Source: Klebsiella pneumoniae (GTDB taxonomy: Bacteria; Myxococcota_A; UBA796; SXON01). From it: a stretch of 64,000 nucleotides of DNA. Shown here piece after piece: positions 3,520-19,381 of this stretch. The notes under the pieces are model-generated. The model was not told the DNA's origin, did not search any database, and worked only from the letters and a program-made list of their open reading frames with translations. The stretch covers positions 1 to 64,000 of the forward strand of contig CAMAWH010000017.1 of the NCBI GenBank assembly GCA_945861635.1. The letters are read 5' to 3'. Positions within the stretch are counted from its first letter, which is position 1, and each line of letters opens with the position of its first letter. The translations under genes were made by a program, and so were the position numbers.

Positions 3520-4965
3520 CTATGACCCCGGTCGTAGCAGGATCGTTTGCACGGTCTTGAGCAGAATCAGCAAATACAGCGCCGGACTCATTTCCTGCAC
3601 GGCGTACAGCTCATAACAAAGCTTCTCCGCGGAATCTTCGACCGTTGCGCCGTACCGATAGCGCACCTGTGCCCAGCCCGTCACGCCGGGGTTCACGGAG
3701 AACCGCAGGGCGTAGAATGGAATGCGCTCCTTCAGGTCGGTCACGAAGTGCTCGCGCTCCGGGCGCGGACCCACGATCGACATATCGCCGCGAAGAACGT
3801 TGTAGAACTGGGGGAGTTCGTCGATCCGCGAACGGCGGAGAAAACGCCCCAACCTCGTCACGCGCGGATCCCCGAGCCCCTGTGACCACACGGCGCCCGA
3901 CTCCGCCTCCGCGTCGTTGCGCATTGTGCGCAGCTTGATGATCTCGAACGGGCGTTCGTTTTTTCCAAGGCGCTCCTGCAAGAAGAACGCCGGCCCCTTG
4001 GATTCAAGCCGAATCGCGACGGCCGCGAGGCCGACGACCGGAAGTGTGATGATCGCGCCAACCAAAGCGATGAGGATGTCGGCAACCCGCTGAACGGCCG
4101 AAGAAAACCGGCTGTTTCCGACGAAAACCGGACCGAAGATCAGCCATGCATCCGACACGTGCAGCACCGGAAGTTTGCCGGTCAAACGCTTATAGAGCGT
4201 CGGCATATCCTCGATGTGCACGCCCCGCGCCTTGCACTCAAGCAGGCGCTTCGTGAGCTCTCCCGTCATGCTGCCGCGCAGCGCCACAATGATGAGATTC
4301 ACACCATGCTCACTCACAAGGCGGTTGAGGTCCGGAACATCGCCCAACACCGCGGGATCCCCCGGCGCCCCCGGAAGTCGGTCGTCGTCGGAATGGTCCG
4401 TGTACCGCCGGCGCCCGCCGGCCGGATGATCGATGAAGCCGACGACGCTGTAGTCCGCGGCGTATTCGGGATTGCTCAAGATCTCCCGAAGAATAAGCCT
4501 GCCCGCTTCACCCGCGCCGACCACCAGCGTCGTCTGTCGAGACGTCGGCCGCGGCGCGATGGAGCAGACCGAAACCCGCCACACGGTCAGCAGAACCGCC
4601 ATGCTCAGACTGGTGAGCAGCGCCAGCCCACGCCCCCACCACCCAAGCGGAAACGCCGCATACGCAAGCAGTTGGAGGGGCAGGGCCGCGATGACCGCGC
4701 ACCAGATTCGGATGATCTCGTGGCGACGGTGGAAGTCCAACGTCGAGTTGTAGGCGTCCGCCATGTACAAGACGATGAGCGTCGAGGAGATGAAGAAGAG
4801 CGACGCACCGGTGTATTGATCGACGATCGCCGCAACGGACTTGTGGCGATCACCAAATCCGAATCGAAGAGCGTGCCCCAGATAAATGGCGATCAACGCG
4901 ACGAGGATGTCACCCGCCACATAGTGGAACTGCCGGCGCTGGTAGGGAATGCCGAAGAATTTCAT
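3520..4965 (-). CDS. Polyprenyl glycosylphosphotransferase (exopolysaccharide initiating sugar transferase)
   Basis: A 481-residue membrane protein of the WcaJ/WbaP type. The N-terminal part has several membrane helices. A CoA-binding-like/Rossmann segment follows (TTLVVGAGEAGRLILREIL, about 145-165). One further membrane segment lies near 285, before the catalytic sugar-transferase domain with KLRTMRNDAE, RSRIDELPQFYNVLRGDMS, VGPRPERE and NPGVTGWAQV. It transfers a sugar-1-phosphate from a nucleotide sugar to undecaprenyl phosphate, the first step of exopolysaccharide repeat assembly at the inner membrane. It overlaps the upstream glycosyltransferase gene by 4 bp and lies 4 bp before the deacetylase pseudogene. 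The sugar specificity cannot be read from the sequence. Confidence 0.92.
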   Translation of the reverse strand: MKFFGIPYQRRQFHYVAGDILVALIAIYLGHALRFGFGDRHKSVAAIVDQYTGASLFFISSTLIVLYMADAYNSTLDFHRRHEIIRIWCAVIAALPLQLLAYAAFPLGWWGRGLALLTSLSMAVLLTVWRVSVCSIAPRPTSRQTTLVVGAGEAGRLILREILSNPEYAADYSVVGFIDHPAGGRRRYTDHSDDDRLPGAPGDPAVLGDVPDLNRLVSEHGVNLIIVALRGSMTGELTKRLLECKARGVHIEDMPTLYKRLTGKLPVLHVSDAWLIFGPVFVGNSRFSSAVQRVADILIALVGAIITLPVVGLAAVAIRLESKGPAFFLQERLGKNERPFEIIKLRTMRNDAEAESGAVWSQGLGDPRVTRLGRFLRRSRIDELPQFYNVLRGDMSIVGPRPEREHFVTDLKERIPFYALRFSVNPGVTGWAQVRYRYGATVEDSAEKLCYELYAVQEMSPALYLLILLKTVQTILLRPGS

Positions 4966-6086
4966 GCGGCATACTCCCGCGGCACGGGCCAGCGCTCGAT
5001 GACCGCAAGCTCGCGGTACACGGCCAGCGTGCCCGCGAGCATGTGATCGGCGGTGAAGTGGCTTTCATAGGAGCGACGTCCCGCATCGCCAAGCGCACGT
5101 CGTAGCGCGGGATCGCCGATCAAGCGGCCGAGGGCAACCCGAAGCTCCGATTCATCCCCACGAGGCACGAGGATTCCCGTCGTCCCGTGTACGACCGCCT
5201 CCTTGATGCCGCCAACGTTGGACGCCACGACGGGCAATCCCGCGCGCATGGCCTCCAAAATGGCGAGCGGAAAGCCCTCTTGCCGCGAGATCAGCGCACA
5301 CACGTGGGACGATGCGAGGAGGTTCGGCACGTCGCGCGAGACTCCCACAAAGTCTACGCGGTCGGCGAGATGCAGATCGCGTGCCGACGCCTCCAGAAGG
5401 GAGCGATCCGGGCCATCTCCGACGAGGCGCAGCCGGAACGGGGCATCGACGCCTGCCAGGGCCCGGAGCAACAGGTGGTGGTCCTTCGGCGCGGCCAGAC
5501 GGGCAACCATCGTGACCACCGGCGCGCCCCCAGCATCCGGCTTGGCGCGCGCCGCGTCATCGCATACGCCATTATGCACGATACGCACCTGCGGGGCGCG
5601 GGCCACGTGATAGCGCATCCCGACTTCACGGTCCGCCTCCGACACCACGATCAAACGGCGCGTCCATCGCCCCACGATCGCTTCCATGGGAATGGCCAAC
5701 GCCTTCGCGCGGAACGGCAGGCCATCCGAAAACGGCCAGGCGTGCGCCGTGTGGATGGCCGCGACGCGCTCCGCACGACCCGCAAGTCGTCCGAGTACGC
5801 CGGCTTTGGCGCTATGGGTATGCAGCAGATGGGGACGAACAGCAGTGATCAGCTTTCGGATACATCGGAACCCGAGGAGGTCCGCAAAAGGGGAAATGCT
5901 CCTCTGCAGCTCAGGAACGACATGCACCGGGATGCCAAGCAATCCCAACTCCTCACCTACGAAGCCGTCTTCTCCGACGGCGACATGAAATTCGACGTGG
6001 CCCCGAAGGCCGCGGACCAGGTCCACGACGTGCACCTGCGCACCGCCCGGCTCCGCGCGAGTAATGACAATAAGTACGCGGAGCAA
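4962..6086 (-). CDS. GT4 family glycosyltransferase
   Basis: The protein starts with LLRVLIVITRAEPGGAQVHV, a GT-B donor-fold opening with the GGAQ loop. Its C-terminal half has LISRQEGFPLAILEAMRAG, with the two Glu of the EX7E motif, then LPVVASNVGGIKE. It is likely a cytoplasmic retaining transferase that extends the lipid-linked repeat begun by the downstream sugar transferase. The TTG at 6086 is proposed as start because the family N-terminus begins there. The frame remains open to an ATG at 6194, but the extra 36 residues look unlike a protein start. GTG at 6116 is another option. The gene is first in the minus-strand exopolysaccharide operon (6086 to 1870). Confidence 0.85.
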   Translation of the reverse strand: MLRVLIVITRAEPGGAQVHVVDLVRGLRGHVEFHVAVGEDGFVGEELGLLGIPVHVVPELQRSISPFADLLGFRCIRKLITAVRPHLLHTHSAKAGVLGRLAGRAERVAAIHTAHAWPFSDGLPFRAKALAIPMEAIVGRWTRRLIVVSEADREVGMRYHVARAPQVRIVHNGVCDDAARAKPDAGGAPVVTMVARLAAPKDHHLLLRALAGVDAPFRLRLVGDGPDRSLLEASARDLHLADRVDFVGVSRDVPNLLASSHVCALISRQEGFPLAILEAMRAGLPVVASNVGGIKEAVVHGTTGILVPRGDESELRVALGRLIGDPALRRALGDAGRRSYESHFTADHMLAGTLAVYRELAVIERWPVPREYAA

Positions 6087-6309
6087 CTCCCCGCGGGCGG
6101 ACGCTGTACCGGCCACCGCTACCGCGGCCACGCAGGCTGGGTCGGAGCGACGGCTGACGTGGGCACGGTTCACTCCGGGCAGGGGGGCGGCCAAGGGATG
6201 CCCAGTATGCCCGAGGATGCGCGTTCCTGCGCGCCCCGCCGCGCGACCACGCGAAGCCAGCGGGCTATGGGGAGGCCATGGAACGGAGCACGCAGCGGGT
6301 CAACCTCGG

Positions 6310-8259
6310 ATGACGGCAACGGACCAGATTCGTGCCTGGAGGGCCGCCGCACCCAACTTCAGGAAGCGTCAACGCAAGAGCGTCGGACAGATTCGCTACG
6401 GCTGGAACCACCCGAAAACGCTCTGCTTCGTCTTCGGCTGCCAACGATCCGGCACGAAGATGTTGATGCGCATCCTCGAAAATAGCCCAGCGACGCGGAT
6501 CTACCATGAGAACAACGAACTCGCGTTCCACGACTTTCAACTGCGCTCCGACCGAACCGTCCGCTTGCTCACCACGACAAGCCCGGCGCCAAGCCAGATC
6601 TTCAAACCCATCTGTGACAGCCACCTTGCGGATCAATTGCTGGAACGATTCCCGGAGGCCAATGGACTGTGGATCTACCGCCATTACGACGACGTGGCGG
6701 GCTCGGCGTCGCAAAAGTGGGGGTCCCACCAGAGAGAAGTGATCGACGCCGTTGCCGCTGGCGATCTGGCGCGGTGGGGATGGCGCACCGAGCGGCTCTC
6801 GGACACCGTCCTCGCCGCCATCCGGCGTGTCCATCGCCCCGATCTGAGCGATCACGAAGGGGGCATGCTCTTCTGGTACATGCGCAATGCCTGCTTCTTC
6901 GAGCGGGGCGTCCACGCCCATCCGCGCATGGTGTTGAAGAACTACGAGGAGCTCGTTCGCGACCCGGCGCGTCATTTTCCGGAGGTGTTTGCCCACGTCG
7001 GCGCACCTTTTGAGAGCTCATTTATCGCGCGCGTGCACGCCGACTCGGTCGGCCGACGCGAGCCCCCCGTGGTCAGCGCGGAGATTCGCGCGCTGTGCGC
7101 GGAGCTGATGGCGCGGTTGGACGGCTGGGTGCGCGTCAAACCAACGCCGAGCTCGACACTCTCCCTCCCCTCGCCCGTGCTGATGTTGATCAACACGCTC
7201 GGCGTCGGGGGCGCGGAACGGCACGTTGTCACGATGGCGAATTGGCTGGCGGCGCGTGGTGTCGCTGTCACGGTAGCGGCAGAAGGGGGCGATCTGGTTG
7301 CTGAACTGCACGCGAGTACGCAATTTGTGGCCACGCCGCTACGGCGGGTGCGCGCCGATCTGCCGCTCGCGGCACGGCAGGTGCGCGCGATCCTGCGGGA
7401 CAGGCAGCCTGCGGTTATCGTCGCCAACTCGCTTGCGGTCACGTTGATCGCCCGCGTCGCGCAGCCGCGTGGGCGCGTGCCGATCGTCAACATCGCGCAC
7501 GGATGGCCCGATGATCGGTACCAACAGGTCGGGCCGCTCTTGCGCGTGGCCGACGTGGTGATCGCCGTGTCCCCGGAAGTGAAGGCCAAGTTGGTGGCCG
7601 GGGGACTCGATCCGAAACGTTGTGAGGTCGTCCTCAACGGCGTGGACTGCACACACCTTGGGCCCCGCGTCGGCGCCACCCGGCAGGCGGCACGGGAAGC
7701 CATGGGCGCCGGCCCCGAGGACATCCTCGTACTGAGCCTCGGAAGGCTCACCCCACAGAAAGCCCACCACCACATGATCGGCGTGGCAGCACGCTTGCGG
7801 AAGGAGCATCCGCTCCTGCGGTACGCCATCGTAGGCGAGGGCGCCCGAGCCCAGGAACTCCGCGATTTGATCACCGCGGCTGGCCTCACGGACGTCGTTC
7901 GCCTCCCCGGCCTGCGCGCAGACGGGCCGGACCTGTTGGGATCCGCCGACATCTACCTTTCCCCGTCGGATTGGGAAGGCATGCCGCTATCTACCATAGA
8001 AGCGATGGCGTCGGGGTTACCGACCGTCGCAACACGCACAGAGGGTGCCGGGTTGCTTCTCACCGAAGAATGTGGCTTCATCGTACCTATCGGAGATGTG
8101 GAAGGCATGGCGACACAGGTGGGTCGCCTGGCCGCCAACCCCGAACTCCGGGCGCGACTTGGGGCCGCCTCGCGCGAGCGGGCACTGGCCTCCTTTGGTC
8201 ACGACCGCATGGCCAAAGAGATTGCCGCGATTCTTGGCCGGGTCACGTCCGGACGGTGA
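6310..8259 (+). CDS. Sulfotransferase-GT4 glycosyltransferase fusion
   Basis: The single frame encodes two enzymes. Residues about 1-285 have LCFVFGCQRSGTKMLMRIL near residue 38, the PAPS 5'-phosphosulfate-binding loop of sulfotransferases, followed by the usual alpha/beta architecture (LKNYEELVRDPARHF). Residues about 290-649 form a GT4 glycosyltransferase: GVGGAERHVVTMANWL, VLSLGRLTPQK, then SDWEGMPLSTIEAMASGLP with EX7E. The ATG at 6310 (MTATDQIRAW) is chosen because upstream codons are low-complexity and overlap the divergent gene. Inferred role: a cytoplasmic bifunctional enzyme adding a sugar and a sulfate to the same exopolysaccharide. The 3' end overlaps the convergent GH2 gene by 17 bp. 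Confidence 0.88.
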   Translation: MTATDQIRAWRAAAPNFRKRQRKSVGQIRYGWNHPKTLCFVFGCQRSGTKMLMRILENSPATRIYHENNELAFHDFQLRSDRTVRLLTTTSPAPSQIFKPICDSHLADQLLERFPEANGLWIYRHYDDVAGSASQKWGSHQREVIDAVAAGDLARWGWRTERLSDTVLAAIRRVHRPDLSDHEGGMLFWYMRNACFFERGVHAHPRMVLKNYEELVRDPARHFPEVFAHVGAPFESSFIARVHADSVGRREPPVVSAEIRALCAELMARLDGWVRVKPTPSSTLSLPSPVLMLINTLGVGGAERHVVTMANWLAARGVAVTVAAEGGDLVAELHASTQFVATPLRRVRADLPLAARQVRAILRDRQPAVIVANSLAVTLIARVAQPRGRVPIVNIAHGWPDDRYQQVGPLLRVADVVIAVSPEVKAKLVAGGLDPKRCEVVLNGVDCTHLGPRVGATRQAAREAMGAGPEDILVLSLGRLTPQKAHHHMIGVAARLRKEHPLLRYAIVGEGARAQELRDLITAAGLTDVVRLPGLRADGPDLLGSADIYLSPSDWEGMPLSTIEAMASGLPTVATRTEGAGLLLTEECGFIVPIGDVEGMATQVGRLAANPELRARLGAASRERALASFGHDRMAKEIAAILGRVTSGR

Positions 8260-10777
8260 GAGTACCCTCCAGATTGATGGCTGTGATGTGCGCTTTGAAC
8301 GCTTTCGCCGCGGCGACCGGCCTGAAGCGAATCACGCGCACACGACTCGGCGATGCGTGGAAGTAGTTGTCATCGGGCGCGTAGCCCGGACTGGACAGCG
8401 AAATCGCCTGCACGAACGTGGTCGCGTGCAGGGAAACCATCACGTCCTCCCCGTCCAACTCGGCCGTGGCCGTCAGGTTGGCGGCGGGCTGAACCGGCAG
8501 GGTGTGTCCGAGCGGGAAGTAGGCATCTTCGTGGATCAGCCCGCCAGTTTCGCTGGACACCAGCCGGGCGACGACCACGTCGTGGCGCGGCGGGCCAAAA
8601 CGATAGGAACAGGTGAGGTCCGAGAACGTCGGGAAGAAGGAGTCCGCGGGAAACACGCAGCTTGCACGCGGGGACACGCGCACCGGAAGCCGGCCCTCCG
8701 CCACTATCGGCCGGCCCGACTTCCACAATTCAACCTCCAGGCTGGCATCGAGTGGCTCGCCAGTTTCGTTGACGATGGTCAGATCCAACCCGTCGAGCCC
8801 CTCATCCGTAATGAGCACGGCCCGCCGCGCCCACGCGCGCCTCAGATACCAGTACGCGGACTTGGGTCGGCCTGTGCTATCGAGTATGCCCCAGCCCGCG
8901 CCGGGGCGAAGATCCTTGAGGAACCACACCAAACCGCCGCCACAGCCGCTATCCGGCCGACGCCATTCGGCGAAGACCCGCAACATCAGTTCTCCGCTCA
9001 CCACGCGCGAAAGTGCGTAGTACCGCTCTAGATCGGTGCTCCGGAGCGTCACGGCGTCCGCACCGAACATCGTCGTAAGGTAATGATCACGAACGTCGTC
9101 GAAATCCCAGCCAGCTCCAGCATCTCGGGGCACCGCGGCCTTCCATACCGGGTGGTGCGGCGGGGGCGTGACGCCGCCGAGCATCCGCTCCATCGTCTCC
9201 GCGTCGGGAACGTTTGCGAGTCCCAAGCACTCGGGCGTAAATTTGACCCGTGCTCGCCGAACATCGGTGAGCGGGCGTCGGTACGCACCAACGCCGTAAT
9301 AGTGCGTCAGTCCGGCGGCCGTGTGAAAGGGAAGCAACCCCTCACACGGCGTGGAGGGGAAGTAGGGGATGCCGGGGTGGTGGCGCTCACACCACGCCGG
9401 GAGCGTGGTGCTGAAGAACGGTTGGATCCACTCTGCCTGCGGAATACCGACCATGGCGGCTTGCTGCTGGACCTCACTGCTACCACAGTAAACGGCAACG
9501 CACGCGCGTTTCTGGAGGCGATTCAGCTGGGCCGTGACCTCGGCCTCGACGTCACCCAGGAAGGCCGCATCTTCAAACGGGTAGTCCATGTTGGCGAACA
9601 TGAAGTCTTGCCAGACGAGGATCCCAAGCGTATCGCAGGTCCGATAGACGTCTTCTGCGGCGTAGGTCATGGTGCCGCCCACCCGGATCATGTTGACGCC
9701 GGCGGCCCGCGCCAGACGGAGGGTTTCGGTGCGTTGCTCCAGGCTTCCATCGAGCGCGCGAATGTCGTCCACCGTCCAGCAGGCTCCCCGACAAAACACC
9801 GGCACGCCGTTCACGAGCAGTTGCACATTGCCGTCGGCACGATCGACGCCGACGGAGCGGAAGCCGACGCGGCCGAAGTCAATCACGTGCTGCCGGCCGG
9901 GCAGTGCGAGCGTCACCGTGCACGCCTCAAGATGGGGTTCGCCATGGGTGTGGGGCCACCAAAGCGGCACGTCGGGGAGAAGGAAGGTACCGGCAAGAAG
10001 CGTGGCGCCATCGCGCTGTTCGAGGGTCAGCCGCAGCGAGAGTGTGCCGACGTTCACAGTGGCGGACGTCGGGGCCGGAGTGCCATCGGCGAACTCCGCA
10101 AAACAGCGGACCCGCGCAACGCCATCCACCGCGTCCGCAATCAGGTGCACCGACGATTCCTCGACAGCGGGTACGCGCTCGAGCGTAATCTCGCGCCAGG
10201 GACCGATCGGCGCCAATCTCGGGCTCCAACCCGGAATATGCCCGAGTAGCGAGGTGCGCACCCACCGCAGGTTCTGATGATCGAGGAGACCGGCCTTCCA
10301 GCGCGGGCGCGGCTGCTTCCGCGAAAGCTCTGCGCGCAACGAACGGAAGACAACCACGATCTCGTTTTCCCCAGGGCCGAGATCGATGTTCACGAGGTGC
10401 TCCCGGAACATGTTGCGGGATGTGAGGATCGACACGCCGTTCAGCCACACCTCCGCCAGCGTGGCGAGCCCCGCGAAGCGCAGTCGATAGCGCGCGGAAT
10501 CGGCGCCCACTTCCGCCGCAAACGTGCACCGGTACCACCAGTCCACGCTCTCCAAATCGTCGGGAGCGTCCAGCGTCGTCGTTAGGCTCGCGGCTACCGT
10601 TCCTGGCACCAGCGCCGGACGCCACGTCAGGTTCTTCCAGGGTAGATTGACCGGCGCAGGACACTGGCCCGGCGGGGTCGCGGCGAGCACCCATCCGTGG
10701 CTCAGATCGGCGGCGAGGTCAGCCAAAGCGGCGCACCAACTCGCCCGTGCCTTCCTGCCAAAGCGCGGCCATGCCAT
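8243..10777 (-). CDS. Glycoside hydrolase family 2 protein (beta-mannosidase-like)
   Basis: A GH2-type protein of up to 844 residues. The N-terminal jelly-roll sugar-binding domain is visible (WWYRCTF, RYRLRFAGLATLAEVWLNG, GENEIVVVF). An immunoglobulin-like domain follows, then the TIM barrel with NMIRVGGTMTYAAEDVYRTCDTLGILVWQDFMFAN and CVAVYCGSSEV, whose NEP/SSE acid-base position reads SSEV. There is no signal peptide, so a cytoplasmic enzyme is likely, unlike secreted mannosidases. The ATG at 10777 lies 59 bp inside the DUF1839 gene. A TTG at 10726, overlapping that gene's stop, is a reasonable alternative start. It is last in the carrier-protein operon, implying that the operon product carries a sugar. 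Confidence 0.85.
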   Translation of the reverse strand: MAWPRFGRKARASWCAALADLAADLSHGWVLAATPPGQCPAPVNLPWKNLTWRPALVPGTVAASLTTTLDAPDDLESVDWWYRCTFAAEVGADSARYRLRFAGLATLAEVWLNGVSILTSRNMFREHLVNIDLGPGENEIVVVFRSLRAELSRKQPRPRWKAGLLDHQNLRWVRTSLLGHIPGWSPRLAPIGPWREITLERVPAVEESSVHLIADAVDGVARVRCFAEFADGTPAPTSATVNVGTLSLRLTLEQRDGATLLAGTFLLPDVPLWWPHTHGEPHLEACTVTLALPGRQHVIDFGRVGFRSVGVDRADGNVQLLVNGVPVFCRGACWTVDDIRALDGSLEQRTETLRLARAAGVNMIRVGGTMTYAAEDVYRTCDTLGILVWQDFMFANMDYPFEDAAFLGDVEAEVTAQLNRLQKRACVAVYCGSSEVQQQAAMVGIPQAEWIQPFFSTTLPAWCERHHPGIPYFPSTPCEGLLPFHTAAGLTHYYGVGAYRRPLTDVRRARVKFTPECLGLANVPDAETMERMLGGVTPPPHHPVWKAAVPRDAGAGWDFDDVRDHYLTTMFGADAVTLRSTDLERYYALSRVVSGELMLRVFAEWRRPDSGCGGGLVWFLKDLRPGAGWGILDSTGRPKSAYWYLRRAWARRAVLITDEGLDGLDLTIVNETGEPLDASLEVELWKSGRPIVAEGRLPVRVSPRASCVFPADSFFPTFSDLTCSYRFGPPRHDVVVARLVSSETGGLIHEDAYFPLGHTLPVQPAANLTATAELDGEDVMVSLHATTFVQAISLSSPGYAPDDNYFHASPSRVRVIRFRPVAAAKAFKAHITAINLEGTLTVRT

Positions 10778-11693
10778 CCAACGGGGAGAGGTCCAACGGC
10801 CGTTTCCGCATCATCGAACGCGCGAGTTGGAATTGAAAGGCCTTCGTGGAGGTTGAGATTTGGTCGAACGCACCTGTTGCACGATCCAGATCGCCTACGC
10901 CCTGCTCCGAGAGCCACCGTAGGTACGTTCCGGCGAGCTCGAAGCACGCACCGTATTGGCGCAGCGTGGCAAACGAATACGCGTGGAACACCTCAATGTC
11001 GGCGCCCAACAACCAATCGACGTCCCGCTCAAACTTCGCCTTGAATGGGAGAAAGGGATTGACGGTGGGAATTCGGCGCACGTGTTTGCGAAGGATCGCC
11101 ACCGATCCTTCCACCAGCGCGCCGCCCCGGAGCGCTGCCGCGCGCGGCACTGCCTTCACGAACTCGATGTAGGGCGGCAGCATGCGGTCGTGCACCAGCC
11201 CTTCGACCTGGAAGACATCGAGGAAGTCCTGACCGCCGAGGTGGTGGTAGCCCTGATTGTGGAAGTACCCCATGTGGCATGCGGCACGATCGATCGCATT
11301 GACGGCAACAGTGGACTTGACGTGCGCCAACTTATACGCAGTGCCGACGGTGTCGGGCAGAAAGTACGAGTCCAATTCGACCAGGACCGGCCGCCCCGCC
11401 CCGACCTGCTCCTCGACATGCTCGACCAAGGGCCGCCATGGCGCCAACTCGTGGATCCCGAGGGCATAGAGTTCCAGCACATCGTCATGGGGAAACTTGA
11501 AGAACGTCCATTGATCCACGTCGAAGTCAATCGTGATTGTGAACGGCAGTGCGGCACGAGGCTCGAACCCCAAGCCGTGCAACAATTCGACGATGATGTC
11601 GGAGTAGCAGTTCGTCTCCGCCCATGTCCGATTTTCGCCGTGGATCATATGGCGCCGATAGGTGGCAGGATCGAGCGAAACAATCTGCGGCAT
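10719..11693 (-). CDS. DUF1839 family protein, possible carrier-protein-dependent acyltransferase
   Basis: A 324-residue protein matching DUF1839: RTWAETNCYSDIIVELLHGLG, FTITIDFDVDQWTFFKFP, VLVELDSYFLPDT, AYKLAHVKSTVAVNAID and GYFHNQGYHHL. DUF1839 is commonly found beside amino acid:[carrier protein] ligases, as here. The order of elements (an early conserved Cys, then a GRPVLVELD strand, a conserved His and a VAVN strand) recalls the papain-like N-terminal domain of BtrH, which moves an acyl group from a carrier protein to an aminoglycoside. This suggests it is the transferase that releases the aminoacyl group. That is inference from pattern, not an established function. It starts 6 bp after the ligase stop. 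Confidence 0.85.
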   Translation of the reverse strand: MPQIVSLDPATYRRHMIHGENRTWAETNCYSDIIVELLHGLGFEPRAALPFTITIDFDVDQWTFFKFPHDDVLELYALGIHELAPWRPLVEHVEEQVGAGRPVLVELDSYFLPDTVGTAYKLAHVKSTVAVNAIDRAACHMGYFHNQGYHHLGGQDFLDVFQVEGLVHDRMLPPYIEFVKAVPRAAALRGGALVEGSVAILRKHVRRIPTVNPFLPFKAKFERDVDWLLGADIEVFHAYSFATLRQYGACFELAGTYLRWLSEQGVGDLDRATGAFDQISTSTKAFQFQLARSMMRKRPLDLSPLDGMAALWQEGTGELVRRFG

Positions 11694-11699
11694 GCGCCC

Positions 11700-12629
11700 T
11701 CAGTGTCCGTCGAGATCGAGGGTTTCACGAACCGAAGCCGGCCACGCCTCGACGCGCAGACCGTGGGTCTTGAACAGTGCGAGCGCGATGCGCTCCAGGC
11801 CAAACCCGATACAGGCGGTGTGCGCCGGCTTCCCGTCGGGAGTGTGGATGTCGAACGCGTGTCCGAAATAATCGAGGTGATAGTTGCAGGAACTGATCGC
11901 GGTGGGGCGCTCCGTCGAACAGATCGGCACCACCAATTCGTACTTCAGCACCTGCTCGCGTTGGGTGGCCTTGGCAAGGCGCCCACCGCGACCGAAGAAG
12001 GGATCGTTCGCGACAACCGCTTGCACCGGCAATCCGACGGCTTCCAGCATCGCCTTCCCACGTTCGAGCCACGCATCTCGGTGAGCGAGCGCCTGATCCG
12101 CGGACCCGATGCGAACGTATTCTCGCTGGCGGAAGATCTGCATCCGGGCTGGATCATCCGACGGCTCATGGCGAAAGACCCACGAGATGAGGTCCACCGT
12201 CCGCCCGGCCTCGGAAACGGTACCGGTGGCCGTGGGGTACAGCGGGTAGCAGGCGGCCGGGATCAGCATCACGTCACTTGCGGCGAGATCGCGCGTCCAA
12301 TCTTCTCCCTCCGTAAACTTCCGCACCAGCTCCTTGTGCTCCGGCTCCCGGCCCATGAATGCGTGAACAGAACCCATCAAATCTGGGAAGTTATGAATAT
12401 GGTTGATGCGAGTGTAATGCGCGCGGTTGAAGATCGGCGGGAAGTGCATCACTTCCGGAGCAAGATGCCGCCCCATCCGCGTGACGTACCGTTCAAACTG
12501 CGCAATCACGCTCTCGAACGTACCGCTGCGCCCGAAAACGCCGCGTACGCCCGATGGAATGAGCAGGCCTGCGGCGGTGAGTTCGGCCAGATAGTCACGA
12601 TAGCTTTCGAAGTCATCGGTGCCGCACAT
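11700..12629 (-). CDS. Amino acid:[carrier protein] ligase (class II seryl-tRNA synthetase-like)
   Basis: A 309-residue protein with only the class II synthetase core and no tRNA-binding coiled coil. Motif 2 is FRHE (Arg153) and motif 3 GFGLERIALALF (Arg280). Cys127 (PAACYPLY), Glu170 (RQREYVRIG) and Cys248 (AISSCNYHLDYFG) fit the Cys/Glu/Cys zinc site described for the Bradyrhizobium enzymes, which activate glycine or alanine with ATP and load it on a carrier protein's phosphopantetheine. The ATG at 12629 is preferred over the more upstream ATG at 12713: a GAGAGG ribosome site precedes it, and the longer start would overlap the upstream gene by 80 bp. The carrier protein is two genes upstream. 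Confidence 0.9.
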   Translation of the reverse strand: MCGTDDFESYRDYLAELTAAGLLIPSGVRGVFGRSGTFESVIAQFERYVTRMGRHLAPEVMHFPPIFNRAHYTRINHIHNFPDLMGSVHAFMGREPEHKELVRKFTEGEDWTRDLAASDVMLIPAACYPLYPTATGTVSEAGRTVDLISWVFRHEPSDDPARMQIFRQREYVRIGSADQALAHRDAWLERGKAMLEAVGLPVQAVVANDPFFGRGGRLAKATQREQVLKYELVVPICSTERPTAISSCNYHLDYFGHAFDIHTPDGKPAHTACIGFGLERIALALFKTHGLRVEAWPASVRETLDLDGH

Positions 12630-12633
12630 CGGC

Positions 12634-13791
12634 CTACCTCTCCCGCAAGACGATCTGCATCGTGGAGCTTTGCCCGAGAATGCGGTCGTTATTGACCATG
12701 AGCGCCGCCCCATAGGCGTCCCGCAGTTGCCGGCCCAAGGAGTGGCTGGAATCGTTGCGGTAGCCAGAAATGCCGCAAATCAGCATCGCCCCGCTCACGA
12801 CGTCGATGATCAACTGCGAGGAGGTGACCTTCAGATTGTTCACCCGAATGGAAAACGGGAAATTCGAGGTGAACACCGCGTCATCGCCATCGTCGAGGAG
12901 CTGCTGGTATTCGCCGACCGTCGCGAGCACGCCCGCGCGCATCGAGAACAGGATGGTGTCCACCTCGGCGAGGCGGAGGGCTGAAGGCGGCAATGTACCT
13001 GGCGTCTTTCGTGCTTCGGCCCGCACGAACGCGCGCGCCTTGCTGACGGCGTCCGACGCGATGCCGAGCCACAGGGAACTCCATACGCTGTGCGAGAACG
13101 GATGCATCGTCTTTGCGTGGATGTCGGCGTACGGAACCGGGAGTATCTGCTCCGAGCGGCCCGTCGAATTCAGCCGAAAGCCGGCGCTGCACGTGCCACG
13201 GAAGCCCAGCGTATTCCAGTCCGACAGGGGCTCCAGTGTCGTGTCTTCCTTCTTCACAAGGACGTGCACCTGATCGCCCGGACCCGCATCCGGCGACTTC
13301 CTGCACGTGACGAGGATTGCGTCCGCAGCCACGCCGTACGAGATCACGGGCGCCTGCTTTTCCAGCGTGAACATGCCGTCGGTTACGATGACCGCCGTAC
13401 GACTCGTCCTCACGTCTCCGCCAATTCCCAGTTCCGTCGTGGCCGATGCCAGCAGGAATTGTTTCGCGACCAATTCGCGCGCGTAGGCCCGGAAATAGTC
13501 GGAGCCGAGCGCGTGATGGACGATGCAACCGATCTGAATTTGGTGCATTGCGAAAATCATGGCGGTTGAACCGCAATAGTGCGCGAGGGCTTCACAGATC
13601 CGCGTGAGATCCGTGATGCTCAACCCCATGCCGCCGTACGCCAAAGGGACGTAGCAGCTCAGCAATCGTTCCGCTTTCAACGCGTTGAATGCTTCAACGG
13701 GAAACCGCGCATCCCGATCGACGGCGTCGGCGTGCGGGGCAATGGACTCGCGCCCGATGGCGTGCACGCGCTCAAGAATCGACGGATTCAT
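12634..13791 (-). CDS. Acyl-CoA-dehydrogenase-family flavoprotein of the carrier-protein operon
   Basis: A 385-residue protein with the family layout: an N-terminal helical domain (FPVEAFNALKAERLLSCYVPLAYGGMGLS), a middle beta domain (ASATTELGIGGDVRTSRTAV, WNTLGFRGTCSAGF) and a C-terminal helical domain ending in CGISGYRNDSSHSLGRQLRDAYGA. The catalytic Glu of acyl-CoA dehydrogenases, normally in a YEGTS segment right after this point, is replaced by a segment reading LMVNNDRILGQSS. The chemistry may therefore be different, for instance amine oxidation of a carrier-bound aminoacyl group. It overlaps the carrier protein stop by 4 bp and lies 4 bp before the ligase start. The likely substrate is aminoacyl-carrier protein (inference). 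Confidence 0.87.
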   Translation of the reverse strand: MNPSILERVHAIGRESIAPHADAVDRDARFPVEAFNALKAERLLSCYVPLAYGGMGLSITDLTRICEALAHYCGSTAMIFAMHQIQIGCIVHHALGSDYFRAYARELVAKQFLLASATTELGIGGDVRTSRTAVIVTDGMFTLEKQAPVISYGVAADAILVTCRKSPDAGPGDQVHVLVKKEDTTLEPLSDWNTLGFRGTCSAGFRLNSTGRSEQILPVPYADIHAKTMHPFSHSVWSSLWLGIASDAVSKARAFVRAEARKTPGTLPPSALRLAEVDTILFSMRAGVLATVGEYQQLLDDGDDAVFTSNFPFSIRVNNLKVTSSQLIIDVVSGAMLICGISGYRNDSSHSLGRQLRDAYGAALMVNNDRILGQSSTMQIVLRER

Positions 13792-14056: not shown

Positions 14057-15829
14057 TCAACCGGCACCGAGGATCGGACTTTCGGTGCCAATAATCAACT
14101 CGATCACGCGGGAATGGGCCCACACGGGCCGAATCGTGTGGTCCACACCGCGAAGAATCGTCAGCTGCGGGCGGGTATCCGGCGTAACGTGTGCATCGAG
14201 ATACGCGATGCTGGGATCGCCCTCACTGGCGACAAGATGGAGGTGCGTGCCGCGCGCCATTACCGCCGCGAGCAGCGCGGCCACCGCATCGGGAGGGGGT
14301 TGCCCGGCCAACTGCGCCACCGTGGCCCGTACCGTCAACTGCGCCTTGCTCACGACGGCCCGCGCGAGCGCAACCGCGTCAATCCGCCCGGTCATCAGGC
14401 GGCGCCAGCGACGGGCGTCGAACAGCGAGCCGCGAATGTGACTTGTCATTCCGCTGGCCCGCGCATCGTCATTCCAGACCCACGCGAGTCCGTTGAACAG
14501 CAGGGCGCGGCGGACGTCGCGACGCGCGGACACCTGCGCCCCCATGAACGCGCCGGAGCAAAGCCCTACAACGTCGATGGCACCTGCCTCCTGCGCGCGT
14601 GCCCACTCCCACGCTACTAACGCATCGTCGATGGACGACTCGCTGTACATCGCCTCCAGATCGGCGTGGGGGATCGACGCCCCGTCGCTATCTCCCACGT
14701 CGCGCACGTCGAAGCGGAGGGAGGGGCGGCCGGCCGCAGCGAGGGCGCGTGCTGCCCGCGTCCACAAGCGATTGGGTCCACTACGCCGGATTCCGCCCGC
14801 GTTGAAGAACACGGTCCAAACCGCGCCCGGTGTTGCACCCCCCGGCGGCTCGCAGACAATCCCGCCGAGTTCGCCCGCACCGCCCCGCTCTACCCACGGC
14901 CGCTCCGTTACGCCGTCGGGAAGGAAGAGCGTTGGCTGTCCACCTGGAGCGGCGGTGTGAGCGGGGATGTCAGCGGGGCCGGCCGCGGTAGCCGGTGCGG
15001 AAGCGAACCACGCAGTAATCGTTTCTTCGACGCCCGGATCCAACTTTGCCTGGTAGGGGTTTTCGAGCAGATCCCCGAGCCCGGCCGCCGGAGAAACTCT
15101 CACCACGGCGCCACCGCCCGTCAGTACGTCGATGAGGGGAGCGGGCGATGCAGAACCTTCCCGTTCAAGGAGGAGTACCCGACGAATCGCCGTGGCGCCG
15201 GTCAGCTCCGCCACCAGCCCCGTACACACGTCCGCGGCGCGGGCGGCCGCCAGGTCTACGGCGACAAGCTGCTCCAGGGCCGCGACGGTAGCGGCGGAGT
15301 AGACGAATCCGCCTGCCTCGACACCTCCGGTCGGGAGCGCCACGCGATCGGCCGGGGGGTCTCCATACGCGCGCGCAGCCATCTTGTGAAACGCGCGCTC
15401 CTCCCGCAGGTACGCCTTGCCGCCCGCAGGGAGGGCCCAGAGCACGACGTCGTCACTTCCGCCCGCGGCGAGCGCGATCAACCCCCCGGCGCGTAGTCCG
15501 ATTGTGCCAACGCGCCGAAATCCGCGCGCGCGAAGGGACGCCGACGCGGCCTGAACCACGCCAACGCACCGGGCGACGACATCCCCCTCCTCTCCCGTTT
15601 GGGGCCCGTCTCCGAGCATCGGCCAATCGAGGCGCAGGACGACGTGCCCCGCCGAAGCCAGCGCGTCTGCCAAAACGCGCAGCGGCCGGTACGCGCACGT
15701 GTCTTCGTAGCCCATGGGGGGAAGCAACAGAATGGCCGTGGCCCGACCGCGCCCATCGCGGGGGCGGTGCTCCACGACGAAGGTTCCACCAAGGTAGTAG
15801 CGCGCCCGCGCTATCGATTTCGCCCCCAT
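14057..15829 (-). CDS. Double alpha/beta hydrolase (fusion resembling the two exosortase-A-associated hydrolases)
   Basis: The 590 residues hold two alpha/beta hydrolase domains. The first (about 20-275) has LLPPMGYEDTCAYRPL, LRLDWPMLGDG and a nucleophile elbow reading GLRAGG, with Arg where Ser is expected. The second (about 290-585) has FFNAGGIRRSGPNRLW, RFDVRDVGDSDG and the elbow GLCSGA, with Cys at the nucleophile position, then RGVDHTIRP with a candidate catalytic His. GLR and GLC elbows are what I recall for hydrolases 2 and 1 of exosortase-A exopolysaccharide loci, usually separate genes. The second domain may be a thioesterase or transferase for the carrier-bound product, the first a non-catalytic partner. 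The start directly abuts the upstream gene's stop. Confidence 0.8.
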   Translation of the reverse strand: MGAKSIARARYYLGGTFVVEHRPRDGRGRATAILLLPPMGYEDTCAYRPLRVLADALASAGHVVLRLDWPMLGDGPQTGEEGDVVARCVGVVQAASASLRARGFRRVGTIGLRAGGLIALAAGGSDDVVLWALPAGGKAYLREERAFHKMAARAYGDPPADRVALPTGGVEAGGFVYSAATVAALEQLVAVDLAAARAADVCTGLVAELTGATAIRRVLLLEREGSASPAPLIDVLTGGGAVVRVSPAAGLGDLLENPYQAKLDPGVEETITAWFASAPATAAGPADIPAHTAAPGGQPTLFLPDGVTERPWVERGGAGELGGIVCEPPGGATPGAVWTVFFNAGGIRRSGPNRLWTRAARALAAAGRPSLRFDVRDVGDSDGASIPHADLEAMYSESSIDDALVAWEWARAQEAGAIDVVGLCSGAFMGAQVSARRDVRRALLFNGLAWVWNDDARASGMTSHIRGSLFDARRWRRLMTGRIDAVALARAVVSKAQLTVRATVAQLAGQPPPDAVAALLAAVMARGTHLHLVASEGDPSIAYLDAHVTPDTRPQLTILRGVDHTIRPVWAHSRVIELIIGTESPILGAG

Positions 15830-17215
15830 CTATTGGCACGCCGAAACGTCAAAGCCGCCGGCCGCGAGCGAGGCGACCGAAAATGAATCTCCCGCCAGTA
15901 CGGGAACCAAATCAGCCTCCGGGATCGACGTGCCTTCGACGTCATTGATCGCACGAATAAACAGGTTGGCGAGGACGCCGTACCCGGTGTCGGAGAAATG
16001 CAGACCATCGAGCGAAACAAATCCGCCTACGACAGTGATTTCAACGTTGGTGCCCCCAACATCAATGCCATTCGCCGCAATATCCGCGACCTCCGTTCGC
16101 AAATCAACAACGTGGATATTCGGATACGGCGCCACGGCCTCGGCGAGCGCGATATTGTATTCCGTCGCCACCGCTGCGATGGCCTCCGCGGCCGCATCGC
16201 CATCTTCCGCGTTCATTTTTGCGCGGCGTTGTTGGGCGCCGCCGAGGACGGTTGGATCCGGTGCGTTGGCGAGAAATACTTCCGCGCCCGTTTCCGCCAA
16301 CATGGGAATCAGCACGGCCAAGCCAGCACGCAAGTCGGAAACGGGGGTGCCGTAGGTCGGCTCCAGTTGGTCGCCCGAAATCACCGTGGGAATGATATCA
16401 TTTCCGAGCAAATCGAAGCTCATGAGTATGCTTGGGGACGCGTTTACGGCCATTTGTGCCTGGGACACCGACGCCGCCTCACCCAAACGACCGTACGGTT
16501 CGTAGACGAGATGGGAAAGGAAGGATTGGCCAACATCCGATTTGGGGTACAAAAGGTCGTCGATGGTGCTGCCGCCCACCGCGAGATCGCGCGGAATCAT
16601 ATCCGGGTCCACCCGTCCGGGAAAAAATGCAAATGCGTTGGTCGCCGGGTCGTGGAGGTTGGCGATGACGTCCGCCGCGGCATCGGAAACAAAATCGGCG
16701 ATATCCGGAATCTCGCAGTTGGGTGGCGGTCCGATATCCGAGGGTGCCAACTGCGGAAACAAATCGGGGATCAAGATGGGCATGGAATAGTACGCCGCCG
16801 ACTGCCGCGCGATCACGGCGCCGGGAGAGACGAGCGCACCGTGATCCCAGGGAACGCCGGACTGCACCCCCTCGGTGAAGCTCGCACCGATCGCCACCAT
16901 GCGGTCAAACAATGGATCGAGCGGCGCGTCGTAGGTGTAGGCGGCCGGGGTGGTGACCGCGCGGTCCGTCGTCACGACGAGGTCCACGACGCCAGGGGCC
17001 TCCGCACCCTGAAGCGTCACGACAAGGTCCGCGCCGTCTACGCGGAGGTTGTAGGCGCGCACGCCACCGAGCGTCACGCCCGTCACCGCAGCCGCGTCCA
17101 CGCCCGTGATCCGCACATCGGTGTAGGCTGCGAGCGACCCGCGGTCGGGCGACATCGATACAACCGGCGTTTCCACCATGCCTTGGCACGCGATCAAGTG
17201 CACGATCAGGGCCAT
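15830..17215 (-). CDS. IPT/TIG plus SGNH/GDSL-hydrolase lipoprotein
   Basis: The 461-residue protein begins MALIVHLIACQG, a short signal with lipobox LIAC. Residues about 20-95 form an IPT/TIG-like beta sandwich (SPDRGSLAAYTDVRITGVDAA). The rest is SGNH-like: block I MVAIGASFTEG, block III with LLGNDI, and block V LDGLHFSDTGYG with the Asp-x-x-His pair. Enzymes of this fold add or remove acyl groups on polysaccharides or lipids. Being a probable outer-envelope lipoprotein, it may act on the exported product of the operon it opens. Its first base is 200 bp from the divergent operon, so this gene most likely carries the operon promoter. Confidence 0.8.
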   Translation of the reverse strand: MALIVHLIACQGMVETPVVSMSPDRGSLAAYTDVRITGVDAAAVTGVTLGGVRAYNLRVDGADLVVTLQGAEAPGVVDLVVTTDRAVTTPAAYTYDAPLDPLFDRMVAIGASFTEGVQSGVPWDHGALVSPGAVIARQSAAYYSMPILIPDLFPQLAPSDIGPPPNCEIPDIADFVSDAAADVIANLHDPATNAFAFFPGRVDPDMIPRDLAVGGSTIDDLLYPKSDVGQSFLSHLVYEPYGRLGEAASVSQAQMAVNASPSILMSFDLLGNDIIPTVISGDQLEPTYGTPVSDLRAGLAVLIPMLAETGAEVFLANAPDPTVLGGAQQRRAKMNAEDGDAAAEAIAAVATEYNIALAEAVAPYPNIHVVDLRTEVADIAANGIDVGGTNVEITVVGGFVSLDGLHFSDTGYGVLANLFIRAINDVEGTSIPEADLVPVLAGDSFSVASLAAGGFDVSACQ

Positions 17216-17414: not shown

Positions 17415-18530
17415 ATGTCCATCCTCGACCTGCTCGAACCCATCGCTGCCGGGCTGATTGCCGATTTCGCTGAATCCGTTGACCGGAATGCGGCGTTTCC
17501 GACCGAAAGCATCGCGGCGCTCGCGGCGGCCGGCCTGCTCGGCGTTGTCACCCCCGCGGAACACGGCGGATTGGGGCTCGGTTTCGACGTTGCCGCCCGC
17601 GTTGTGAACCGCCTCGCGCGGAGTTGTGGCACGACGGCAATGGTCACCTGTATGCACTACTCGGGCGCGGCCGTCCTCGCGAAATACGGTTCAGCGGCGG
17701 TCAATCAGGACGTCGCGGGCGGACGACATCTCTCGACGCTCGCGTTTTCAGAGGCGGGTTCGCGGAGCCATTTCTGGGCGCCGATGTCCACTGCCCGAGC
17801 CGAGGGCGATGCGATCGTGCTCGATGCGCAAAAAAGTTGGACGACGTCCGCCCGGGCGGCAACGGCCTACGTCTGGTCGAGTACACCCGTGACCGCCGAG
17901 GGCGCATCCACGATCTGGCTCGTGCCCGGCAACACCCCGGGAATCGACCGATCAGCGCCGTTCGACGGCCTGGGCCTGCGCGGAAACGAGTCGGCGCCCG
18001 TCCGCTCGGTTGCCGCGCGGATCCCGCTCGCGCATCGGCTGGGCCCGGATGGCGGTGGGTTCGACATCATGATGGGAACCGTCCTGCCACTTTTCAACCT
18101 CGCCAACGCAGGGTGCGCGATCGGGCTCGCGGAAGCGGCGACCGAACGCGCGTGTGCCCACGCCGTCGGCACCCGCCACGCGCATCTCGACACGGCGCTC
18201 CGCGACTTACCGACGATCCGGGCATACCTCGCTCGAATGCGGGTCAAGACGGACATGGCGCGCGCGCACTGGGAGGATGCGATGCACGCCGTCATGTCGG
18301 GGCGTGCCGACGCCCTGCTCCGGGTGCTGGAAGTGAAAGTCGCCGCAGGAGAAACGGCGGGTGAGGTGACGACGTTGGCGATGCGGGTGTGCGGCGGCGC
18401 GGCCTACCGGAAGGATATCGGCGTCGAACGCTACTTCCGTGACGCGCAGGCGATGGGCGTCATGGCGCCGACAAGCGACGTGTTGTACGAGTTCATCGGG
18501 AAGGCGATCACCGGAATGGAGCTGTTCTGA
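17415..18530 (+). CDS. Acyl-CoA-dehydrogenase-family flavoprotein (second, plus-strand operon)
   Basis: A 371-residue flavoprotein with the family layout: FPTESIAALAAAGLLGVVTPAEHGGLGLG, CGTTAMVTCMHYSG, LAFSEAGSRSHFWAPM (the flavin loop), and the C-terminal RVCGGAAYRKDIGVERYFRDAQAMGV. At the catalytic-base position, where dehydrogenases have an EGT segment, it reads MAPTSD, so the Glu is absent. Family members with this change include flavin monooxygenases of the DszC type. It is co-transcribed with a PhnD-like binding protein and a diiron protein, which suggests oxidation of a small sulfur-, phosphorus- or nitrogen-containing compound (inference). Its stop overlaps the next ATG by one base. 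Confidence 0.87.
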   Translation: MSILDLLEPIAAGLIADFAESVDRNAAFPTESIAALAAAGLLGVVTPAEHGGLGLGFDVAARVVNRLARSCGTTAMVTCMHYSGAAVLAKYGSAAVNQDVAGGRHLSTLAFSEAGSRSHFWAPMSTARAEGDAIVLDAQKSWTTSARAATAYVWSSTPVTAEGASTIWLVPGNTPGIDRSAPFDGLGLRGNESAPVRSVAARIPLAHRLGPDGGGFDIMMGTVLPLFNLANAGCAIGLAEAATERACAHAVGTRHAHLDTALRDLPTIRAYLARMRVKTDMARAHWEDAMHAVMSGRADALLRVLEVKVAAGETAGEVTTLAMRVCGGAAYRKDIGVERYFRDAQAMGVMAPTSDVLYEFIGKAITGMELF

Positions 18531-19381
18531 TGGCGCGGCCGTTTACCCTGGGGGCGGTGGCCTACGACCGAAAGGTCGTGGATATCTGGGAAGGCTTCAA
18601 GGGTTGGTTCGCCACTCGCGGATTCCTCTTCGACTACGTGCTCTATTCCAACTACGAACGCCAAGTGGAGGGGCACTTCCGCGGCGAGACGGACGCCGCG
18701 TGGAACTCGCCGTTGGCGTGGTTGCAAGCGGAGCGCATCGCGGCGGAGCGCGGGCACCGCGCTCGCGCCGTTGCGATGAGAGACAGCGACTGCGATCTGA
18801 CCAGCGTCATCCTCGTGCGGGCGGATTCGCCCTTACGAACGCTGGAAGATCTTCGGGGGAAGGGGGTTGCCGTCGGGGCGAGCGATTCCCCACAGGCAAC
18901 GCTGATCCCGCTGCACATGCTGCGCGCTGCGGGCGTTCACCCGGAAACGGAGTGTCGCATCGTTGTTCACGAGGTTCATCTTGGAAAACACGGTGATCAC
19001 GTCGGAGGCGAGCGGGACGCCGTGCGAACGCTCATGCGCGGCGAGGCAGACGCCGCCTGCGTCATCGATGGCAACCTGCTCGCCTTCACACGAGAAGGGG
19101 AAATCTCCGCAGGGAGCACGCGGGTACTGGCGCAGACTGCGCCCTACGACCACTGCAACGTCACGGTGCTCGACGACGCAAATGCCGCCACGGTGACGAC
19201 GTTTGCCCGCCTGCTGCTCGGGATGTCGTACGCCGACGAGACCGTTCGGCCGCTCCTCGATCTGGAGGGGCTGAAGGAATGGAGAACTGGACGAACGGCA
19301 GGCTACGCCCAACTCGCCGCCGCGTGCGATGCCACCGGGGTTATCGACGAATTCGTGACCCGTGTCGCTCGCGACGCTTGA
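18530..19381 (+). CDS. PhnD-like substrate-binding protein without signal peptide
   Basis: The 283 residues follow the two-lobed PhnD/transferrin-like fold: FTLGAVAYDRKVVDIWEGFKGWF at the N-terminus, DSDCDLTSVILVRADSPLRTLEDLRGKGVAVGASDSPQATL in the hinge region and EADAACVIDGNL. Transport-associated members have a signal peptide. This one begins directly with the first beta strand (MARPFTLGAV), and no ABC permease or ATPase is nearby, so a cytoplasmic role is likely: a sensor, carrier or enzyme partner. The start overlaps the flavoprotein stop (TGATG). The 3' end overlaps the next gene by 20 bp, indicating tight co-expression of all three. Confidence 0.75.
   Translation: MARPFTLGAVAYDRKVVDIWEGFKGWFATRGFLFDYVLYSNYERQVEGHFRGETDAAWNSPLAWLQAERIAAERGHRARAVAMRDSDCDLTSVILVRADSPLRTLEDLRGKGVAVGASDSPQATLIPLHMLRAAGVHPETECRIVVHEVHLGKHGDHVGGERDAVRTLMRGEADAACVIDGNLLAFTREGEISAGSTRVLAQTAPYDHCNVTVLDDANAATVTTFARLLLGMSYADETVRPLLDLEGLKEWRTGRTAGYAQLAAACDATGVIDEFVTRVARDA

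Follow-up and report, generated by a model that had tools for sequence, protein, structure and literature searches.

The DUF1839 gene and its conserved cassette

The window analysed here is a stretch of 64,000 nucleotides (positions 1 to 64,000 of contig CAMAWH010000017.1, assembly GCA_945861635.1, titled Klebsiella pneumoniae and carrying a GTDB lineage in Myxococcota_A), and the gene under study encodes a protein of the DUF1839 family, a candidate aminoacyl-transfer enzyme. Coordinates of this gene and its neighbours are given in Table 1. The gene is a minus-strand open reading frame (ORF) that starts with ATG and encodes 324 amino acids, and the plus-strand frame over the same positions is interrupted by an internal stop. 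Residues 9-317 match Pfam family PF08893 (DUF1839) with an E value of 3.6e-115 and 385 bits, against a curated cut-off of 22.5, which bears out the family assignment made in a first-pass annotation of the window. The sequence elements listed there were all located, namely N28-C29-Y30-S31-D32, G100RPVLVELD108, His124 within AYKLAHVKS, V129AVN and G142YFHN146.

A genome scan retrieved 249 relatives of DUF1839, the best 80 of which were taken as loci, giving 81 with the window; cassette genes were counted over these 81 wherever the contig was long enough. DUF1839 belongs to a fixed cassette that also comprises a carrier protein, a flavoenzyme, an amino acid:carrier ligase, a glycoside hydrolase of family GH2 and an alpha/beta hydrolase. 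At the 62 of 81 loci with at least 4 kb upstream, the carrier and the flavoenzyme are present in 62/62 and the ligase in 53/62. The GH2 gene lies directly downstream of DUF1839 in all 75 loci with at least 1 kb of sequence, and the alpha/beta hydrolase was found in 48/48 loci with enough flank. The window ligase scores 433 bits against NF005479 (cut-off 357) and shares its family with the seryl-tRNA synthetase (SerRS)-like amino acid:carrier protein ligases of the Bll0957 and Atu2574 loci; its true start is probably downstream of the ORF start, because residue 36 is the first one covered by the family match. The phosphopantetheine serine of the carrier, Ser40, is conserved in 73/73 sequences and the GH2 residues Glu435 and Glu516 in 71/74 and 74/74, respectively; judged by this conservation, the three residues look catalytic.

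The record titles of the DUF1839 loci cover nine phyla, many of them belonging to metagenome bins, and at least one label looks wrong: the DUF1839 of locus L025, titled as a Klebsiella pneumoniae metagenome-assembled genome, groups with uncultured proteobacteria, and its species label is probably incorrect. In a separate sample of 377 genomes from the same phylum as the window, DUF1839 was found in 20, a ligase above the cut-off in 21 and both in 19, the two matches lying less than 100 bases apart in 19/19 (Fisher p 9e-29 for co-occurrence, relatedness being ignored). The same gene order is present on plasmids of Azospirillum oryzae, Rhizobium gallicum, R. acidisoli, Caballeronia grimmiae and Mycetohabitans rhizoxinica, the R. 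acidisoli cassette showing no GH2 gene in the incomplete table of PLSDB. On the Rhizobium plasmids (L168 and L171, from bean-nodule rhizobia) the cassette follows nifN, nifX, fdxB and a gene annotated as an exopolysaccharide production repressor, a location hinting at a symbiotic role. Further cassette plasmids (L169, L170 and others) come from fungus-associated Mycetohabitans and insect-associated Caballeronia.

Table 1. Positions of the DUF1839 gene, the cassette and other genes in the window.
Feature	Position	Strand	Remarks
Glycosyltransferase and sugar-transferase genes	3520..8259		
Single ORF, sulfotransferase-like part followed by GT4 glycosyltransferase	6064..8259	+	possible natural fusion
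GH2 beta-mannosidase-like enzyme	8243..10777	-	nearest solved chain 5n6u, E 2.5e-49
DUF1839 (PF08893), proposed carrier-protein-dependent aminoacyltransferase	10719..11693	-	proposed active site Cys29, Thr128, His145; C-terminal basic helix 284-298
Amino acid--[acyl-carrier-protein] ligase	11700..12713	-	NF005479 E 4.9e-130; homologue of Bll0957 (3mey/4h2w), E about 1e-73
Acyl-CoA-dehydrogenase-like flavoenzyme	12634..13791	-	proposed modifier of the carrier-bound aminoacyl group
Carrier protein, 85 residues	13788..14045	-	PF00550; NF005480 E 5.7e-30
Fused alpha/beta hydrolases	14057..15829	-	resemble exosortase-A-system hydrolases 1 and 2, below the cut-offs of those models
GDSL-like lipase	15830..17215	-	farthest upstream in the minus-strand run; in 1/81 loci
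Rv1679/FadE16-like acyl-CoA dehydrogenase, Rv1680-like substrate-binding-protein-like gene, weakly AurF-like diiron protein	17415..20540	+	resembles a mycobacterial gene pair
BtrH_N/DUF4872 gene	25397..26620	+	PF14399 E 1.6e-16, PF16169 E 1.5e-24; Ser at the catalytic Cys site; considered unrelated to the cassette

Predicted fold and proposed active site

The structure of DUF1839 was modelled with AlphaFold2 on an alignment of 78 rows, consisting of the window and 77 of the 80 loci (near-duplicates L013, L020 and L022 omitted). The model has a predicted local distance difference test score (pLDDT) of 95.4 and a predicted template modelling score (pTM) of 0.92, and displays a papain-like fold followed by a helical C-terminal domain. 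Cys29 opens the first long helix (residues 29-40), as is characteristic of the papain-like superfamily. One predicted strand, at 103-108, falls within the G100RPVLVELD108 element, and Thr128 and His145 lie on strands 126-135 and 140-145, respectively.

A Foldseek search of the PDB at E <= 0.001 returned 18 chains, every one of them a CcbD, AziU2-U3 or CtaG entry, the best matches being AziU3/U2 structures (E 3e-7). Alignment with VIA-align 2 revealed that the model adopts, over its full length, the two-domain fold of the CcbD-type carrier-dependent condensing enzymes (CcbD, 7yn1_B; Z 19.3 and root mean square deviation of 3.5, with 289 of 324 residues aligned). AziU3 (8gs1_D; Z 18.3, 280 aligned) and CtaG of closthioamide biosynthesis (9qvs; Z 17.6, 273 aligned) follow. 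The next rows fall to Z 7.8, and papain-type proteases reach Z of about 6-7.5 with the N-terminal part of DUF1839 alone. AziU3, an enzyme of azinomycin biosynthesis, works together with a second subunit to make an aziridine, which would set it apart from DUF1839 as proposed here.

Passages of PMC12945683 describe CcbD as a carrier-dependent enzyme with a Cys-His-Glu triad and a ping-pong mechanism, which couples carrier-tethered proline to an amino sugar by way of an acyl-cysteine, yielding an amide, and whose Arg312, Arg316 and Arg324 bind the carrier. Similar to CcbD and LmbD, the condensing enzymes of lincosamide biosynthesis, DUF1839 has a (predicted) two-domain fold, a cysteine as the likely nucleophile, a proposed donor in the form of a carrier-tethered amino acid, and C-terminal helices with a basic patch. 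The patch comprises K284 (76/78), R292 (77/78), R296 (71/78, with Lys in 5) and a basic residue at position 298 (77/78), which by analogy may correspond to the carrier-contacting arginines of CcbD. In contrast, no sequence similarity between DUF1839 and CcbD is detectable, the triad order is apparently Cys-Thr-His and not Cys-His-Glu, and the donor is loaded by an aminoacyl-tRNA synthetase (aaRS)-like ligase or by a stand-alone adenylation enzyme.

Within the 78-row alignment, in which the lowest identity to the window protein is 46%, Asn28, Cys29, Asp32, Asp108 and His145 are invariant (78/78 each), and position 128 is Thr in 76 sequences and Ser in 2. The order of the motifs is therefore a property of the family and not a product of chance. 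Cys29, His124, Thr128 and His145 are also retained in 3/3 plasmid-borne members from Azospirillum, Rhizobium and Caballeronia (46, 42 and 40% identity). Conservation of the cysteine and a papain-like predicted fold were the two points on which the first-pass annotation had staked its reading of the protein as a papain-fold aminoacyltransferase, and neither refutes it.

According to passages of a 2023 survey (PMC10318531), DUF1839 is a newly recognised papain-like family whose triad reads C(T/S)H, the His having traded position with Thr or Ser. Conservation, spacing and this published model together make Cys29-Thr128-His145 the more likely active-site order. Counted along the sequences, the third triad residue lies 16 positions after the His-equivalent in both CtaG (H128 to D144) and the BtrH-type protein L117, and 17 positions after it in DUF1839 (Thr128 to His145). 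The titles of the CtaG PDB entries list C11A, H128A and D144N variants, a Cys-His-Asp set, and sites 128 and 144 appear to match Thr128 and His145 of DUF1839. If His124 occupied the His position of the canonical Cys-His-Asp/Asn/Glu order, its partner would be expected at positions 140-141, where no Asp, Asn or Glu is conserved. Thus His124, previously proposed as the active-site histidine, probably does not have that role, yet it is retained in 77/78 rows, the single exception (Asn) being L025.

BtrH, described in passages of PMC10318531 as an acyl carrier protein:aminoglycoside acyltransferase, resembles DUF1839 in combining a papain-like N-terminal part with a further C-terminal region (PF14399/PF16169). 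Unlike BtrH, DUF1839 has no PF14399 match, and its His placement is apparently opposite. Neither PF14399 nor PF16169 was found in the protein at E <= 0.1, PF08893 being the sole match, and hhalign gave a probability of 4.6% with a GRPVLVELDS..LPD-like stretch as the only aligned part. The earlier description of the protein as a BtrH-like papain fold is thus retained for the papain-like fold, as predicted, but not for membership of the BtrH family. A BtrH-family gene cited as lying 14 kb away is indeed present, 13.7-14.7 kb from DUF1839. As support for the function of DUF1839 it was rejected, since its product carries HSDT in place of the HCES found at the catalytic Cys site of canonical relatives (L117-L119), and since no such gene was found in the other 80 loci: hidden Markov models of BtrH-type proteins, built from 11 and 3 sequences, matched no other gene among the ORFs of the 81 loci. 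The window BtrH-type protein had no match among solved-structure sequences at E 10. Among seven related BtrH-type genes in the same order (L121-L127), six likewise have no Cys at this alignment position, while L123 keeps it, and the Cys-less BtrH_N/DUF4872 proteins are possibly a non-catalytic or re-purposed BtrH subgroup.

Replacement of the activating enzyme, and neighbouring genes

No ligase was found in 14 of the 80 loci, five of which lie at or near a contig end (L027, L028, L030, L032 and L033). A search of the 14 corresponding whole genomes detected no ligase in 13 of them, four control genomes being positive; in the remaining one (G063), a contig other than that of the cassette encodes a single homologue, a weak one (E 8.9e-47). 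At locus L086, the gene immediately upstream of that for the carrier encodes a stand-alone adenylation enzyme for amino acids (TIGR01733, E 7.7e-108). Proteins that match the L086 enzyme at 51% identity or more (E < 1e-160) are encoded by 12 of the 14 genomes with a ligase-less cassette, versus none of 64 ligase-bearing genomes (14 + 50 searched, with L022 and L091 outside the search; Fisher p 2e-12, ignoring relatedness). All 14 adenylation enzyme sequences share the pocket-region strings PLYFDNS and NMYGPTEITVDC. They end 4-9 residues past the end motif where this was found (11/14 sequences), and therefore have no attached carrier domain.

The association was used as a prediction for G198, the lone genome of the phylum sample with DUF1839 and no ligase, which was found to encode the adenylation enzyme at 57% identity; 14 comparison genomes gave nothing better than E 4e-77. 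On a quick DUF1839 tree, scored over 76 rows with two left out as unclear, the activator label changes seven times, and at least five of these changes are forced by well-supported branches. Since the activator is replaced with the rest of the cassette kept, what the pathway appears to require is a carrier bearing an activated amino acid, whichever enzyme makes it. The adenylation enzyme is not exclusive to the DUF1839 pathway, being present in two genomes of the phylum sample that have no DUF1839 (G290 and G309).

FkbH-type proteins are encoded near the cassette in gammaproteobacterial loci L035, L053, L064, L067, L069, L072 and L077, that of L064 matching TIGR01686 with E 1.6e-68. As an alternative loader the FkbH-type gene was set aside, L067 and L069 also having the ligase, so that it is no clean replacement. 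A second exosortase-type hydrolase gene lies beside the FkbH-type gene in L053, L064, L072 and L077, and L053 has an exosortase A gene. Next to the cassette of L080, a Kangiellaceae contig, lies a second set of genes for a carrier protein and a flavoenzyme; L080 also has an adenylation enzyme of its own, with an identity of only 37%. In the window, the GDSL-like lipase and the plus-strand genes at 17415-20540 were rejected as cassette members, as the GDSL, substrate-binding-protein-like and AurF-like genes have no homologue in the other 80 loci. FadE16 matches in 77 loci coincide with the cassette's own flavoenzyme family.

Proposed reaction and alternative functions

DUF1839 is probably the enzyme that performs acyl transfer (condensation) in a pathway based on a carrier protein, working like CcbD and LmbD. 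The activator, an aaRS-like ligase here and a stand-alone adenylation enzyme of the non-ribosomal peptide synthetase (NRPS) type in other lineages, would load an amino acid on the phosphopantetheine arm of the carrier, where the flavoenzyme may oxidise it in an optional step. DUF1839 would then take the aminoacyl group from the carrier onto Cys29 in a ping-pong reaction, with His145, held by Thr128, as the proposed general base of a triad in which the His and partner positions are swapped, and pass it to an acceptor to form an amide. The acceptor most likely to be used is an amine of a sugar-containing envelope intermediate, as suggested by the fixed GH2 and hydrolase partners, the nearby polysaccharide genes and the CcbD precedent, although this acceptor has a less than even chance of being right. 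The wider proposal is given just short of an even chance: a fixed six-gene pathway, spanning nine phylum labels and rhizobial nif plasmids, that puts an amino acid on an envelope sugar by means of a CcbD-type DUF1839 with a swapped His, its activator having been exchanged at least five times between aaRS-derived ligase and NRPS-type adenylation enzyme with the other cassette genes retained.

These proposals have to be weighed against a different use of the same fold. Papain-like enzymes are mostly hydrolases, and DUF1839 might act not as a transferase but as a thioesterase, amidase or peptidase that frees the carrier-bound group or trims a glycan-peptide; passages of PMC10318531 include the guess that the family processes cell-wall glycans in an acyl-CoA-dependent manner, and GH2 and alpha/beta hydrolases are encoded in the same cassette. 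This is unlikely, as the best two-domain matches are carrier-dependent biosynthetic enzymes (Z 16-19) and proteases match at Z 6-7.5 over the N-terminal part. Moreover, ATP-driven loading of an amino acid followed by its hydrolysis would be futile, and the cassette has its own hydrolase gene at 48/48 loci. Carrier-bound chemistry other than acyl transfer, of the kind performed by AziU3, is suggested by the AziU3/U2 structures being the best Foldseek matches and the second family by Z, but an invariant Cys-Thr/Ser-His set fits covalent acyl catalysis, making such a role very improbable. Slimmer still is the chance that DUF1839 is a non-catalytic partner of the carrier protein, or a chaperone for the ligase or flavoenzyme. 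Its constant position beside the carrier and flavoenzyme and its conserved basic C-terminal helix would suit such a partner, whereas the invariance of Cys29 and His145, extending to the three plasmid-borne members, is unexpected for a scaffold.

Several observations weigh against the assignment of DUF1839 as a CcbD-like condensing enzyme. Its sequence profile gave no match to solved-structure sequences at E <= 10, so that homology to the CcbD-type enzymes was not detected by sequence and no residue-level alignment of DUF1839 with CcbD could be made. The proposed triad is provisional, because His124 is almost as conserved as His145. A papain-like fold shared with AziU3 does not fix the chemistry of DUF1839, as AziU3 makes an aziridine. 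The adenylation enzyme was not found in G063 and G066, two of the 14 ligase-less genomes, the first having the weak ligase homologue, and at E < 1e-160 it occurs in 3 of the 377 phylum genomes, two of them the DUF1839-free ones noted above. The FkbH-type genes near 7/81 loci could load a non-amino acyl group.

A function of this type has been anticipated. The passages of PMC2922099 (2010, note added in proof) predict that a conserved ORF (Atu2574) beside a SerRS-like ligase forms an amide link to the amino group of a cell-surface sugar derivative, and that a redox enzyme modifies the aminoacyl group; that locus resembles the window in its neighbouring carrier, redox enzyme, conserved ORF and glycosidase. 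By this resemblance DUF1839 is presumed to be the ORF called Atu2574. Neither the DUF1839 fold nor replacement by an adenylation enzyme appears in those passages, and the passages of PMC10318531 give the papain-like fold without a link to the ligase pathway. The carrier-dependent aminoacyltransferase role put forward in the first-pass annotation is thus upheld by the predicted papain-like fold, the full-length matches to carrier-dependent enzymes, the invariant cysteine and the locked association with carrier and ligase, but three of its supporting points fell away, and so did its novelty, the function having been predicted in 2010 and the fold published in 2023. The present finding joins these two published predictions and contributes further evidence to them: the CcbD-type match over the full length, the counts of cassette genes and the substitution of an adenylation enzyme for the ligase. 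Searches of a library of openly licensed papers, one of which contains the name DUF1839, brought up no study treating the family as a transferase, nor any mention of the CcbD-type match, the cassette counts or the activator exchange.

In passages of a 2022 review (PMC9437257), the biological role of amino acid attachment to carrier proteins by aaRS-like ligases is given as unknown. Should DUF1839 be the enzyme that acts next, both the release from the carrier and the fate of the carrier-bound amino acids become directly testable, and the cassette would provide a gene list for finding the product of the pathway. With the exchange of aaRS-derived ligase and NRPS-type adenylation enzyme, the cassette would offer a clear example of unrelated amino acid activators that can stand in for each other within a single pathway.

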